A program made the position numbers and the translations under genes. Below are positions 55,060-64,000 of a DNA stretch of 64,000 nucleotides, one piece after another. The notes beneath the pieces are model-generated. The model had not been told where the DNA came from. It made no database searches and worked only from the letters and a program-made list of their open reading frames with translations. Source of the stretch: Alicyclobacillus tolerans (GTDB lineage: Bacteria; Bacillota; Bacilli; Alicyclobacillales; Alicyclobacillaceae); the NCBI RefSeq assembly GCF_001447355.1, contig NZ_JXBW01000003.1, forward strand, positions 62,001 to 126,000, in the 5' to 3' direction. Within the stretch, counting starts at the first letter, position 1. Every line of letters starts with the position of its first letter.

Positions 55060-55482
55060 CTAGTTTGCGAGTGGAAGCTCCAGGCTTGTATCGTCAAAAA
55101 GCACACGATGTGTCCCCAGGCTTGCCAGTAAATCCTCATCGCATCGATTGCGGCATACGGCCACGATGTCCGCATGCTCTTCGCGGATGACGCGGTCAAT
55201 GACCACGCTGCGATTGCCGACCTCGTGTCGGAACTTGACGCGATCGAGCCAATGTAAAAACACATGCGATACACGATCTTCCAGTTCCTGCTTGAACACC
55301 AGTTCAGCGTCTGGAAGTATATAGTGAGCGTGGTTTCCTGTATCAAGGCATAGTCCTTCTTGCGGATCGGAGATGTACAGAACAGTAATCCGAAAATCAT
55401 CGACCTCGTCAAAATACTGCTTAAGACGCCCCAGGCGATCAACGTCGTCGATTTCGCTCACGATCATGACAATGTTCATCAT
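55060..55482 (-). CDS. Universal-stress-protein-like protein
   Basis: 140 aa, weakly Usp-like. It starts MMNIVMIVSEIDDVDRLGRL, with a beta-alpha-beta pattern and VIDRVIREEHADIVAVCRNR resembling the Usp IIREHADLIVVG segment. The Gly-rich ATP loop of UspA (GxxGxG) is not present, so it is probably not an ATP-binder. ATG overlaps the ldh stop (ATGA), so it is translationally coupled to lactate dehydrogenase. Confidence 0.6.
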   Translation of the reverse strand: MMNIVMIVSEIDDVDRLGRLKQYFDEVDDFRITVLYISDPQEGLCLDTGNHAHYILPDAELVFKQELEDRVSHVFLHWLDRVKFRHEVGNRSVVIDRVIREEHADIVAVCRNRCDEDLLASLGTHRVLFDDTSLELPLAN

Positions 55483-56426
55483 GCTTCCCCCTCTTTTGCA
55501 ATAGCTAATGCTTGTTGAATTCGCGCCCGCAGCTCTCGTGCGGATGCCTCAAAGGCGGTCTGCTTCCTCACCGACAGCGGCAAATCGATCACGTTTTCGA
55601 CCCCGCTCGCTCCTATGACACACGGCACGCCCATATACACATCAGATATGCCGCGATATTCGTGGAGCAGGGTGGACACGTTCAACACCGCATGCTCGTC
55701 GTACAAGATGGCGGTACAAATCCGATCTAAAGCCAGCGCGATCGCATAGCTCGTATATCCTTTAGACTCGATAATCTCGTAGGCAGCTTTGCGAGTCTGC
55801 AGCGCGACACGTCGACGTTTTTCTGCTGTGAGGTCAATAAGTGTGCCAACGACGTTTGCCGTACTCCAGACAGGCACCTCGGTGTCACCGTGCTCACCGA
55901 TGATATGTGCATGAACGCTTCGCGGATCGACACCTAACTCGGACCCCAGTAAAAACCGAAAGCGTGCGCTATCAAGAACCGTGCCAGAACCTATTACGTG
56001 CCCTGCAGGCAAATTGGCTTCTTTATTCGCCACGTACGAAAGTACATCGACGGGATTGGTCGCAACGAGTAAAATACCTTGGAAGTTATAACTTCTCAGT
56101 TGACCGACGACATCTCGCATAATCCGCACGTTTCGGACAAGCAATTGCTGCCTGGTCTCACCAGGTCGTTGTGCAACACCGGCGGTTACAATCACGATGT
56201 CCGCATCGGCGCAGTCCTGGTACGTTCCCACCCAAATTCTTGAACCTCCAACAAACGGAAGACCATGTTGCATGTCCAGGACCTCTCCGTTTGCTTTGCG
56301 AACATTTGTATCGATAAGAACAATCTCTGTAGCTCGCGACCGTAAGAACAGTGTATATGCGGTTGTGGCTCCTACAGCGCCCGCTCCAACCACAACAATG
56401 CGCGTTGGCTTCGTTTTGATTGCCAT
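55479..56426 (-). CDS. ldh: L-lactate dehydrogenase
   Basis: 315-aa NAD-dependent LDH reducing pyruvate to lactate. NAD loop VVVGAGAVGATTAYTLFL, substrate loop Arg in AQRPGETRQQLL, ATNPVDVLSYV and the catalytic His in HIIGEHGDTEVPVWS. Gln in VAQRPGE favours lactate over malate (malate enzymes have Arg). ATG 56426 follows AAGGTGGTG. It lies 39 bp after pfkA, so glycolysis and fermentation enzymes are co-transcribed. Confidence 0.95.
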   Translation of the reverse strand: MAIKTKPTRIVVVGAGAVGATTAYTLFLRSRATEIVLIDTNVRKANGEVLDMQHGLPFVGGSRIWVGTYQDCADADIVIVTAGVAQRPGETRQQLLVRNVRIMRDVVGQLRSYNFQGILLVATNPVDVLSYVANKEANLPAGHVIGSGTVLDSARFRFLLGSELGVDPRSVHAHIIGEHGDTEVPVWSTANVVGTLIDLTAEKRRRVALQTRKAAYEIIESKGYTSYAIALALDRICTAILYDEHAVLNVSTLLHEYRGISDVYMGVPCVIGASGVENVIDLPLSVRKQTAFEASARELRARIQQALAIAKEGEA

Positions 56427-56465
56427 GCATGCACCACCTTGCTTCTGTTTCATCTTCAGACTCTT

Positions 56466-57425
56466 TTAGACCGCAAGTGTGTCTGCAATCCGGTGATAAG
56501 AAAGATTTGCTTCATGTTGTCGGTCGAAGACTTCCGTAAAGGGTACTGCCGTCACTCTTGCGCCACACATCGCCACCATGTGATTCGTCATCCCCTCTAG
56601 CAACAACCGAACAGCTTCTGTCCCATAAAGGCCCCCTAAGATCCTATCTCGAGCAGACGGGGAGCCTCCCCGTTGAATGTGTCCCAGTACCGTTACCCGA
56701 ACCTCCGATGCAATATGGTTTCGCAGAAACTCTCCCACGTCCATCGCGCACGCCGCGCCTTCTGCCACGATGACAATCGGATGCTTTTTTCCACGCTCTC
56801 TCGCCTTATTCAATTGAGCAAGAACACGATCAAGGTCCTGCGGTTCTTCAGGAATTAAAATGGAAGCTGCTCCCGCTGCCATACCGACCGACAGAGCAAT
56901 TGCTCCAGAATGATGACCCATGACTTCTACCACGTACGTACGATCATGCGAACTCGCTGTATCGCGGATCCGATCAATGGCCTCAACAGCCGTATTGACC
57001 GCGGTGTCAAAGCCGATGGATTCGTCCGTCCCTGGAATATCATTGTCGATGGTACCTGGAATTCCAATGACCTGGATTCCATATTGCGCCAATGCATAGG
57101 CTCCACGAAAAGAACCATCGCCTCCAATGACGACAAGACCTTCGATACCATGCTTTTGTAAGGTCGCGATTCCCTTCGCCAACCCTACTGGCGTCTTAAA
57201 AGCTTCACATCGTGCGGTCTGAAGCACTGTTCCACCCCGTTGGATGATGTCACCCACAGAACCGGGGGTCAATTCCAACACATCGTCATCGATCATTCCT
57301 TGATATCCATGTCGAATACCGAAAATCCTACATTCGTAAAATGAGGCTGTTCTCACAACGGATCGAATCGCCGCATTCATCCCCGGCGCATCGCCTCCGC
57401 TTGTCAATACAGCGAACGTCTTCAT
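56466..57425 (-). CDS. pfkA: ATP-dependent 6-phosphofructokinase
   Basis: 319 aa, bacterial allosteric Pfk. Nucleotide loop VLTSGGDAPGMNAAIR, GGDGSFRGAYALA with the ATP-type Gly, catalytic PGTIDNDIPGTDESIGFDTA, and substrate site GHIQRGGSPSARDRILGG. ATG 57425 starts MKTFAVLTSGG; the open frame to 57488 is not conserved. Separate from the pykA neighbour usual in Bacillus; here it leads to ldh. Confidence 0.96.
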   Translation of the reverse strand: MKTFAVLTSGGDAPGMNAAIRSVVRTASFYECRIFGIRHGYQGMIDDDVLELTPGSVGDIIQRGGTVLQTARCEAFKTPVGLAKGIATLQKHGIEGLVVIGGDGSFRGAYALAQYGIQVIGIPGTIDNDIPGTDESIGFDTAVNTAVEAIDRIRDTASSHDRTYVVEVMGHHSGAIALSVGMAAGAASILIPEEPQDLDRVLAQLNKARERGKKHPIVIVAEGAACAMDVGEFLRNHIASEVRVTVLGHIQRGGSPSARDRILGGLYGTEAVRLLLEGMTNHMVAMCGARVTAVPFTEVFDRQHEANLSYHRIADTLAV

Positions 57426-57531
57426 GATTATCACTTCCACTATGAATTGAATCCGTAAAACGTACAAACGCCGTGCTAGCTTCAGCATGTGGATAGATCA
57501 TCCGTTCTCGAAATGCCATCTACCATGATTC

Positions 57532-57960
57532 TCACTTCACAACGAGTGTTGGTACATGCGAGCGATGAACGACACTGCTACTGACACTTCCAAGTAACAA
57601 TCGGTCTACGACGCCATAGCCGTGACTTCCAAGTACAATCAAGTCTACCGCCTCTTGATCCGCTACTTGACAAATTGTGACCGCGGGCGGGCCGAATGCG
57701 CTCCGAAACCGTACTCGAGACTCATATCCAGCAAACTGCTGTTCAACACGTTGCTTGACGTTATTAACCACTTTCTTCAAGTCATCCTCCGGCAATTCTG
57801 CAACAAAACCGATACCTATGCCTGCTGTCGCATATGCGGGCGGTGTGACATGCAAAGCGATGACAGATGCGTCTGGAAAGGCGTCTAGAAATTGAATCAC
57901 CATGTCTCCCGCCTGGATGGCTCCCTGCGAACCGTCTGTCGCCAAAAGAATTGTTTTCAT
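57532..57960 (-). CDS. Universal stress protein UspA family
   Basis: 142-aa Usp with an intact ATP-binding pattern: start MKTILLATDGSQGAIQAGDM and loop VLGSHGYGVVDRLLLGSVSS (G-x2-G-x9-GS). Single domain. Usp proteins often respond to low oxygen or energy stress, in keeping with the surrounding ldh, pfkA and nitrate reductase genes. Confidence 0.9.
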   Translation of the reverse strand: MKTILLATDGSQGAIQAGDMVIQFLDAFPDASVIALHVTPPAYATAGIGIGFVAELPEDDLKKVVNNVKQRVEQQFAGYESRVRFRSAFGPPAVTICQVADQEAVDLIVLGSHGYGVVDRLLLGSVSSSVVHRSHVPTLVVK

Positions 57961-58122: not shown

Positions 58123-58671
58123 TCACGCAGAAAGCTTGCGTACATGACGGGAGTCAGAGCCCCCCTTAGGTTGAAAGAGTGTGACGAACCTCCGTAACCG
58201 CGGGATGATAAAGAAGTCCAATCCGACATAAGCGGCATTAAATCCACCGATGAGCAGAAACATCTCCCATATCACCATGTTCGGATTGGTGCTTGTCGTG
58301 CCGGCGAGCAGATATGCCATATTCATCACCACGGCCACCAGCGCCGCAAACGTTGTAAAACACCCAAACACTAAGGCGATGCCTACTAACAGCTCACCAA
58401 AACTTACAGCGTATGAAAACAACCTTGCATGCGGCAAAGCAAACTGCTTGATAAATGAGGCGTACCACGCTTGAACGTTCGGGTGTGTCCCGACACTTTG
58501 AGCAACGGCACTCCTAAGAAATCCCTCCACTGCAATTCCAGCCTGACTCCCCGTCCAGACTGAAGAACCAATCTTCGTAAGAGACGAACGGATCCACTCG
58601 ACACCAATCCAAATTCGTAGTGCAGTGAGAATCCATCTGACAAACACGTTTTCACGCAACAGTTTCACCAT
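58123..58671 (-). CDS. DoxX family membrane protein
   Basis: 182-aa protein with four hydrophobic spans of the DoxX type: RWILTALRIWIGVEWIRSSL, SYAVSFGELLVGIALVFGCF, FAALVAVVMNMAYLLAGTTS and LLIGGFNAAYVGLDFFII. DoxX proteins are linked to quinone-dependent or redox processes; the exact function here is unknown. It starts just inside a divergent region shared with the HesB-like gene. Confidence 0.82.
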   Translation of the reverse strand: MVKLLRENVFVRWILTALRIWIGVEWIRSSLTKIGSSVWTGSQAGIAVEGFLRSAVAQSVGTHPNVQAWYASFIKQFALPHARLFSYAVSFGELLVGIALVFGCFTTFAALVAVVMNMAYLLAGTTSTNPNMVIWEMFLLIGGFNAAYVGLDFFIIPRLRRFVTLFQPKGGSDSRHVRKLSA

Positions 58672-59310: not shown

Positions 59311-59450
59311 GGTAGATCTTTTGTACTACTAGAAAGTTAGTTCATCCGGATAAAAGAAGATGACCAATTCGTTTCTTTTTGCACAACCCCCGCATGGCCA
59401 TAATGAGATCGTCTTAAATCTTGGCAATTCGCAACGGGGGGGAATTCCAT

Positions 59451-61196
59451 ATGTATGTTCCAGTAGGTGTATCCAATCGCCACATCCACCTCACTGAAGC
59501 TGATGCCGATCGCTTATTTGGTAAGAACCATGTGTTTCGTGTACGAAAGTCCTTACGCCAACCTGGGCAGTATGCGTGCGAAGAAACGGTAACCCTACGC
59601 GGACCGAAGGGACTGATCCCGAATGTTCGCGTGTTGGGCCCGTGCCGGTCCTACTCTCAGGTTGAGATATCAAAGACGGACAGTTATGTACTCGGCGTCT
59701 GCCCGCCTGTTCGTGATTCCGGAGATATCGAGGGGACTCCCGGTATCGAGATCATCGGTCCAAAGGGAACATTGCAGCTCGAACGTGGCGTGATTCTGGC
59801 ACAACGGCACATTCACATGCATCCAAGTGAGGCTTCTGAACTGGGGGTCAAAAACGGCGATTTCGTGTCCGTGGTAACCAAAGGTGAACGAGAGGTTATT
59901 CTTGAACGTGTTCTGTGTCGTGTAAGTGAACATTACAGACTTGAGTTTCACATCGACACCGACGAGGCAAATGCCTCGGGACTGTCGTCAGGCGACATTG
60001 TAAAGATCATACAGGTTGACGCCATTCACGAAATCCAAACGTTTAAGCCAAAACGAGTGCTCGTTCTCAATTGTGGCAGCAGTTCTGTCAAATATAAGGT
60101 CTACAACATGCCTAGTGAGACGATCACGGATAGCGGTAACATTCAGCATAATTATGGCGGCGATCTTCATGCTAGCCTCGCAAACATTTTTGATCACGTT
60201 GGTAGCGAGATCGACGTCGTGGCACATCGAGTCGTGCACGGGGCAGACCTTTTCACTGAATCGACCCTTATTACAGATGAAGTGATTAATAAAATTCAAA
60301 GCATCTGTCACATGGCCCCATTGCACAATCCGGTCAATTTGGAAGGCATCCGCATAGCTAGAACGTTTTACGCCACTATTCCACACATAGCCGTATTCGA
60401 TACGAGTTTTCACCAAACCATGCCTCCCACTTCGTTTTTGTACCCGATACCTTACGAATACTATGAAAAACATAAAATTCGCAGGTATGGGTTTCACGGG
60501 AGCAGCCATCGTTATGTAATGGAGCGAGCTGAGCAGATACTCGACACCCCGAGATCCAAGCTCCGACTCATCAGTTGCCATATCGGAAACGGTGTAAGTG
60601 TTACAGCTATTCGCAATGGCGCCTCATATGCGACCTCTATGGGCCTAACGCCACTTTCCGGTGTTGCCATGGGAACACGAAGCGGAAGCATTGATCCGGC
60701 AGTGATTCCCCTCCTCGAAGGGTTGGAGGGTCTTACGACGAGACAGGTTCTGGATATCTTAAACCATGCAAGTGGACTTCTTGGTATCTCAGGTCTAAGC
60801 AATGATGTACGTGTATTGCTCGAGGCGGAGAAACAAGGACATGAAAGAGCCAAGCTGGCACTCGACATCTTTGTTATGAAGCTTCATGACTATATTGGTC
60901 TGTGCATGGCCCGCATGAATGGAGCAGATGCCATTATCTTCACCGCTGGCATCGGGGAAAATAGTCCAGAAATACGCGAAAGAATATGTCGGGGTCTTGA
61001 ATACACGGGCGTTTTTTTAGATGCTGCGAAAAACAGCGAGGAATCCGGGGAACGCGTCATCTCAAGTAAATTCTCGCCTATTAAAGTGGCCGTCATCCCT
61101 ACAAACGAAGAGCTGATCATGGCCCGTGACGCATATTGGATTGCTCTTCAAAACGTCACACAGGAGACATACGTATATTCGCCACTTCATGCATGA
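59451..61196 (+). CDS. Fused PduL-type phosphotransacylase and acetate kinase
   Basis: 581-aa single ORF with two complete enzymes. Residues 1-195: PduL, with the metal motifs VGVSNRHIHLT (10-14) and LAQRHIHMHPSEASELGVKN (119-123), and typical beta segments GPKGLIPNVRVLGP. Residues about 201-581: acetate kinase, starting KRVLVLNCGSSSVKYKVYN, with VAHRVVHGADLF, FDTSFHQTMPP, RRYGFHGSSHRYV, MGTRSGSIDPAVI and FTAGIGENSPEIRERIC. Together these convert acetyl-CoA and phosphate through acetyl phosphate to acetate and ATP. ATG 59451 follows a GGGGGG stretch; no frameshift or stop separates the domains. Confidence 0.92.
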   Translation: MYVPVGVSNRHIHLTEADADRLFGKNHVFRVRKSLRQPGQYACEETVTLRGPKGLIPNVRVLGPCRSYSQVEISKTDSYVLGVCPPVRDSGDIEGTPGIEIIGPKGTLQLERGVILAQRHIHMHPSEASELGVKNGDFVSVVTKGEREVILERVLCRVSEHYRLEFHIDTDEANASGLSSGDIVKIIQVDAIHEIQTFKPKRVLVLNCGSSSVKYKVYNMPSETITDSGNIQHNYGGDLHASLANIFDHVGSEIDVVAHRVVHGADLFTESTLITDEVINKIQSICHMAPLHNPVNLEGIRIARTFYATIPHIAVFDTSFHQTMPPTSFLYPIPYEYYEKHKIRRYGFHGSSHRYVMERAEQILDTPRSKLRLISCHIGNGVSVTAIRNGASYATSMGLTPLSGVAMGTRSGSIDPAVIPLLEGLEGLTTRQVLDILNHASGLLGISGLSNDVRVLLEAEKQGHERAKLALDIFVMKLHDYIGLCMARMNGADAIIFTAGIGENSPEIRERICRGLEYTGVFLDAAKNSEESGERVISSKFSPIKVAVIPTNEELIMARDAYWIALQNVTQETYVYSPLHA

Positions 61197-63463: not shown

Positions 63464-64000
63464 TCATTCGTGTACACTGTACCGTTTCCGATATTGGATA
63501 GGCGGCCTTGCAACGTAACCAACTGGCGCACTCCACACATGCACTAGGCGTGTAAAAGGAATCGAAGCCAATAGAATGAACGACGCCACGATATGCACCT
63601 GGAGCAATACAGGGACTGTGTGCATCAAATTCGGGTTTGGATGAAGCAGAACAATATCTCGAATCCAAGGACCCACTGTCGTTCGGTATTCATAAGGACC
63701 GACAACATTGTTATAACCCACAGTTTGCATTACACCAAGTCCAATGACAATCCACAATAAACCCAGACAGATAAAGTCAGATGGCGTGGAGTTATGTCGT
63801 ACACGCTTATTCACAATGCGTCTTATTAAAAGCAGTGAACAGCCAACAAACGTCACAACGCCAGCTAAACCACCGATTGTATCCGCAAGTACGTGGTGAT
63901 AAAACTCCGTTGAAATGTGGAAAAATTGATACACCGATATGGGAATGACAAGCCCCATCACGTGTCCGCCAATGACGGCCAGCATCCCAAAATGGAACAT
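63464..64000 (-). CDS. narI: Respiratory nitrate reductase gamma subunit NarI (partial, 5' end beyond the window)
   Basis: C-terminal 178 codons of the membrane cytochrome b subunit that passes quinol electrons to NarGH. Heme-ligand histidine segments are visible: FHFGMLAVIGGHVMGLVIP at the edge and LQVHIVASFILLASIPFTRL near the end, with VHVWSAPVGYVARPPIQYRK as the typical tail. The frame is open to the window edge, so the first visible Met is internal. Presence implies nitrate respiration; narGHJ should lie beyond 64000. Confidence 0.92.
   Translation of the reverse strand: MFHFGMLAVIGGHVMGLVIPISVYQFFHISTEFYHHVLADTIGGLAGVVTFVGCSLLLIRRIVNKRVRHNSTPSDFICLGLLWIVIGLGVMQTVGYNNVVGPYEYRTTVGPWIRDIVLLHPNPNLMHTVPVLLQVHIVASFILLASIPFTRLVHVWSAPVGYVARPPIQYRKRYSVHE

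Follow-up and report, generated by a model that had tools for sequence, protein, structure and literature searches.

Can the whole conversion of acetyl-CoA to acetate and ATP be carried by a single polypeptide? The question is raised by a gene at positions 59451..61196 (forward strand) of the 64,000-nucleotide stretch of Alicyclobacillus tolerans DNA analysed here (referred to as the window). The first-pass annotation described a continuous 581-codon reading frame uniting a PduL phosphotransacylase with an acetate kinase, and profile searches bear this description out. The frame is open from ATG to stop (581 codons plus stop) and encodes 581 amino acids; an alternative in-frame TTG start at 59421 would make the protein 10 residues longer. 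A run of G residues at 59436..59442 (forward strand), 8 nt 5' of the ATG, may serve as the ribosome-binding site. In Pfam, PTAC (PF06130) scores 257 bits over residues 4-178 (cut-off 25), and Acetate_kinase (PF00871) scores 440 bits over residues 250-559 (cut-off 22). The NCBIfam models PRK15070 (phosphate propanoyltransferase, 269.7 against a cut-off of 209) and TIGR00016 (ackA, 445 against 293) are also passed, and the Pfam scan found no PTA_PTB domain (PF01515) in the protein.

The source genome is a 2.81 Mb draft (99.8% complete), and its division into 55 contigs leaves room for an artefact of assembly or sequencing in which two adjacent genes were merged, a danger recognised when the fusion was first proposed. 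However, the same uninterrupted frame, PduL first, recurs in 25 distinct sequences from independent assemblies. We have therefore rejected this explanation, which has a negligible chance of being correct.

The PduL half (residues 4-178, 59460..59984, forward strand) gives a gap-free alignment with the solved PduL structure from Rhodopseudomonas (5cuo). H11, H13, E72, H120, H122 and H167 of the window protein correspond to the zinc ligands H48, H50, E109, H157, H159 and H204 of 5cuo, and R66 corresponds to R103 of its phosphate site. The roles of the two-zinc ligands and of the phosphate-contacting arginine are taken from passages of the PduL structure paper (Erbilgin et al., 2016; PMC4784909). 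The metal motifs initially recognised in the sequence are complete, as every ligand named for the solved protein is present. H48, H50, E109, H157, H159, H204, R103, Q107, S127 and R194 (5cuo numbering) are kept in all 25 PduL-first fusions, and Foldseek superimposes the PduL part of the structure model on 5cuo with a TM-score of 0.97 by target and an rmsd of 0.8. Since residue 11 already corresponds to H48 of the reference PduL, the fusion has no N-terminal extension of the encapsulation-peptide kind.

The linker (residues about 188-201, 60012..60053, forward strand) is followed by the acetate kinase domain (residues about 202-562, 60054..61136, forward strand). According to an alignment with the Methanosarcina enzyme (1g99), the kinase starts ahead of the Pfam stretch, near residue 202, and Foldseek matches this part of the model to acetate/propionate kinases with TM-scores of up to 0.89 by target. 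N207, R260, H292, D317, H349, R410 and E553 are equivalent to N7, R91, H123, D148, H180, R241 and E384 of the Methanosarcina acetate kinase, which we take to be catalytic; this agrees with the kinase motifs claimed for this half. N7, S10, K14, R91, H123, D148, H180, R241 and E384 are kept in 25 of the 25 PduL-first fusions. N211, presumably a nucleotide-site residue, is Asn in the window protein and Ser in 9 of these 25. The predicted structure of the whole fusion, built from 25 aligned sequences, has a mean pLDDT of 84.3, with low confidence at linker residues 190-196, and a pTM of 0.61. The individual domains are reliable; their relative arrangement, and with it the distance between the active sites, is not.

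From these comparisons we infer both activities, the direction of flow and the physiological role of the fusion. The N-terminal PduL, a two-zinc phosphotransacylase, would make acetyl phosphate from acetyl-CoA and phosphate, releasing CoA, and the C-terminal acetate kinase would use acetyl phosphate and ADP to form acetate and ATP. The PduL half would take the place of Pta and the fusion that of the Pta and AckA pair, in which case one gene would carry the whole pathway, for energy gain during overflow or at low oxygen. The idea that the two enzymes act one after the other is supported for both identities by profile matches and active-site residues. We are confident that both domains are active, and nearly as confident that the protein is a bifunctional enzyme yielding acetate and ATP from acetyl-CoA. 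Measurable channelling of acetyl phosphate between them, as expected in the first-pass annotation, is plausible but on the whole doubtful.

The true substrate might instead be propionyl-CoA or another short acyl-CoA, with propionate and ATP as products. PRK15070 is named after propanoyl transfer, and propionyl-CoA is the preferred substrate of Salmonella PduL according to passages of Erbilgin et al. (2016; PMC4784909). The fusion also matches the propionate kinase model PRK12379. This match, like that to the butyrate kinase models of NCBIfam, nevertheless stays under the cut-off, which among the kinase models is passed by the general acetate/propionate kinase model TIGR00016 alone. With glycolytic genes nearby and no pdu or shell gene found, this choice of substrate appears improbable.

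In the canonical Pta-AckA pathway the overall reaction is the same as that expected of the fusion, the kinase is homologous to its C-terminal half, and Pta has an unrelated fold. In contrast to organisms with this pathway, the source genome appears to have no true Pta: its only PF01515 match (24 bits) is PlsX. The fusion gene is the sole PF06130 match and the sole PF00871 match of the genome, so the search for separate pta and ackA genes came out in agreement with the fusion reading. The protein had also been placed outside any microcompartment context. This is confirmed for the source genome (G000), where a profile search gave no matches to shell genes (PF00936) and no pdu genes were found; shell genes are present in 4 of the 21 fusion-bearing genomes searched. 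Phosphoketolase was considered as a source of acetyl phosphate and rejected, as the genome has no XFP_N (PF09364) match. The bifunctional reading thus draws on the presence of both domains, their intact active sites, the single frame, its conservation, and a genome in which neither a further AckA or PduL nor a true Pta was found.

The surroundings of the gene point to sugar metabolism. On the reverse strand upstream lie a gene for a 140-aa protein (55060..55482) without Pfam or NCBIfam match, ldh of the lactate/malate dehydrogenase family (55479..56453), pfkA for 6-phosphofructokinase (56466..57488), a universal stress protein family gene (57532..57960) and a DoxX family gene (58123..58671). 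Farther along the window there are genes for an OsmC protein and, at the window edge (63464-64000), the nitrate reductase gamma subunit. The reported proximity of ldh/pfkA and a nitrate reductase gene is therefore correct. Three of these neighbours recur next to or near the fusion in two congeners (L159 and L161), with identities of 43-45% for the 140-aa protein, 75-76% for PfkA and 69-73% for the DoxX protein. None of the three was found in the 15 kb stretch examined around the fusion of G005 (L160), and ldh stands beside the fusion in none of the three congeners compared, against two of three for pfkA. In the same comparison none of the window's fusion neighbours was matched at loci L040-L049.

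The pfkA and ldh neighbours support a role in sugar fermentation, and the role under low oxygen or overflow is put forward with caution because the neighbourhood is only partly kept across fusion loci. The same neighbours speak against the fusion running mainly in reverse, from acetate and ATP to acetyl-CoA, for acetate assimilation. Many of its carriers are aerobes, which would suit such a use, as would a genome in which no Pta and no other acetate kinase were found. Both half-reactions are reversible, and reverse use is stated in passages of Erbilgin et al. (2016; PMC4784909). An acetyl-CoA synthetase, if present, would make such a role redundant. Overall, we regard assimilation as the main function as unlikely, though less so than a propionyl-CoA substrate, and prefer acetate formation.

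Control of the gene through Fnr-, Rex- or cre-like sites was considered and dropped. Fnr-type sites with at most one mismatch were present in 2 of 26 upstream regions, none of them in the window; 300 shuffles gave an expectation of 0.30, with 3 as the highest value. The two are Fnr-like palindromes with a single mismatch, upstream of the fusions at L044 and L047. As for Rex/cre control, 13 upstream regions gave scattered cre-like matches only, with no shuffle control; one of these, with one mismatch, lies upstream of the window fusion.

How widely is the fusion spread? Among 61 genomes, the source included, seven have a PF06130 match: four carry fusion frames of 587-594 aa and three a stand-alone PduL. 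All four fusion genomes belong to the same genus as the source. Of the 15 genomes of this genus, four have an acetate kinase match, exactly those with the fusion, and in none of the 15 does a PF01515 match exceed 28 bits. Where the pathway is found in the genus, it thus comes as the fusion, and the gain of one gene may amount to the gain of a fermentation pathway. The fusion domains of G005 are identical to those of the Alicyclobacillus acidiphilus contig L040, with the same neighbours.

In the class Bacilli at least 19 of 398 genomes have a near-full-length fusion match (55-100% identity), and a frame check showed single frames with both domains. Named carriers of the PduL-first form include species of Alicyclobacillus, Tumebacillus, Paenibacillus, Cohnella, Aneurinibacillus and Brevibacillus. 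PF06130 itself was found in 213 of 398 genomes in the phylum-wide profile search, a figure that covers PduL both fused and unfused. At least five of the 19 fusion genomes (G539, G509, G569, G745 and G593) have a second, ordinary acetate kinase match; the fusion is not the sole acetate kinase of every carrier. A full-profile Pta was found in one of the 19 (G526, 302 bits). G593 and G574 have PF01515 matches of about 150 bits, with the best stretch at profile positions 108-319, and these are perhaps phosphotransbutyrylases; the remaining genomes have matches of 21-25 bits (four genus members) or none (twelve). By a hand count that ignores kinship, PF01515 matches with E <= 1e-60 are present in 171 of the 379 other class members, compared with one of the 19 fusion genomes. 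The carriers sit in related families which may be free of Pta even without the fusion.

A feature of the PduL-first fusions is a shortened kinase N-domain (residues 207-260 in the window protein, 60069..60230, forward strand), measured from N7 to R91, both included. It counts 54-55 residues in 24 of 25 PduL-first fusions and 48 in the remaining one, whereas 24 of 25 stand-alone kinases have 82-86 (the exception, L153, has 55) and all 30 kinases paired with a separate pduL have 84-85. The fusion kinases are therefore about 30 residues shorter here than ordinary acetate kinases, a point that may weigh against the bifunctional reading, as may the Ser at N211 in some of them. Of the 22 fusions of the opposite order, Ack first, 15 have 66 residues or fewer, one has 78 and six have 84. 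The stand-alone kinases were picked for their similarity to the window protein, and mycobacterial PDB kinases, about 13 residues longer than the window kinase in the alignment, also look shortened; for these two reasons the short N-domain is a lead rather than a result. The mycobacterial structures mean that a full-length N-domain is not a defining feature of the acetate kinase family. We speculate, with little expectation of being right, that the missing 30 or so residues may leave a docking face for PduL and hence a physical channel for acetyl phosphate, arisen in both domain orders.

The two orders came from a scan of named contigs with six peptides of the window protein, in which at least 80 loci were sorted by reading frame; the origin of the peptides favours near relatives. 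Among the 80 loci listed, 10 are PduL-first fusions, all from Bacilli (L040-L049), and 22 are Ack-first fusions from Pseudomonadota, Myxococcota, Acidimicrobiales and Desulforapulum. In another 29 of those listed, most of them from Lachnospiraceae and other Clostridia, pduL and ackA are neighbours but occupy separate frames, and 19 have the kinase alone. One more separate pair (L014) was added from the phylum-wide PF06130 search.

PduL-first fusions form one group of 26 rows both in the kinase tree (support 100), with the stand-alone kinase L153 inside, and in the PduL tree (support 97), with the stand-alone PduL L008 inside. Ack-first fusions form another group, with supports of 95 and 93 in the two domain trees. 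The separate clades of the first trees suggested two independent fusion origins. This was dropped, as topologies holding all fusions together beat the free searches in likelihood by 17.1 and 5.1 and were compatible by the AU test (p-AU 0.716 and 0.615). The all-together topology not being rejected, the data fit either one origin or two for the domain pair. The opposite domain orders require at least two rearrangements.

Departures from the fused state bear on whether one half could be a leftover, with just the kinase or just PduL mattering in the cell. L153, a fusion-like AckA standing alone in Paenibacillus-like genomes, may from its position in the tree have lost a PduL half; a tree with L153 outside the fusion clade is nevertheless not rejected (AU 0.303). 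In G019, from the same family as the source, the PduL part stands alone (L158, 5999-6655): tblastn found no kinase part in 13 kb and the genome has no PF00871 match, so the kinase half seems to have been lost. Where the fusion is intact (25 sequences), however, the active-site positions compared hardly vary in either half, and a vestigial half is very unlikely; we retain the view that both domains work. The short N-domain was also observed in acetate kinases of about 373-383 aa that stand alone, at L153 (1501-2643) and in the stretches L154-L157.

Related arrangements are known. Passages of Erbilgin et al. (2016; PMC4784909) mention multidomain proteins that contain paired PF06130 halves, carry for the most part an Ack annotation and have no encapsulation peptides, and propose that such fusions replace Pta and aid acetyl phosphate channelling. 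The window protein resembles them in having PduL and Ack in one frame and no encapsulation peptide; those passages give no organism or domain order, whereas the window protein is PduL-first and from Bacilli. The architecture and the channelling idea were thus already published in 2016, which limits the weight of the fusion finding, and the window gene is a further, well-conserved example. The word "unusual" in the first-pass annotation does not hold for an arrangement that recurs in Bacilli, exists in reversed order elsewhere and is already in print. A dedicated study of a PduL-Ack fusion was not found in the open-licence PMC literature. In Moorella thermoacetica PduL1 and PduL2 are established (PMC10823632) as phosphotransacetylases of the acetate pathway outside microcompartments; there they and Ack are separate proteins, whereas here they are fused. 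For Candidatus Phytoplasma mali, passages of PMC3984173 propose, with expression data, a PduL-like phosphotransacetylase acting with AckA: as in the window, a two-step route to acetate and ATP with PduL replacing Pta, but from separate genes. Hungatella and Lachnospiraceae loci (L050-L066 and others) likewise have PduL followed directly by AckA, but in two reading frames and with a kinase N-domain of 84-85 residues.

What we add is the distribution, the reversed Ack-PduL form of other phyla, the short kinase N-domain and the fusion-free congeners that lack the pathway. Provided that both halves are active, one gene holds the entire route from acetyl-CoA to acetate and ATP. The fusion would then offer a natural test of whether acetyl phosphate, which is labile and has regulatory effects, is channelled, and could be used in cell-free work as a ready-made enzyme for ATP regeneration.

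Ack-PduL proteins of Azonexaceae and Desulforapulum additionally begin with a cyclic-nucleotide-binding domain (PF00027; the three proteins scanned score 46-56 bits). Pfam places these cNMP-binding/Ack/PduL proteins at L109 (7362-9836), L119 (7575-9896) and L093 (7347-9833); L111, L113 and L115 are also counted among them. With a sensor domain and a possibly altered kinase linked to PduL, these proteins may hold more novelty than the window gene. In the five betaproteobacterial sequences S12 is replaced by Q or R, K14 by H or R and E384 by D or N, all three presumably nucleotide or catalytic positions of acetate kinase, with R91, D148 and R241 unchanged. L093 retains all six residues.
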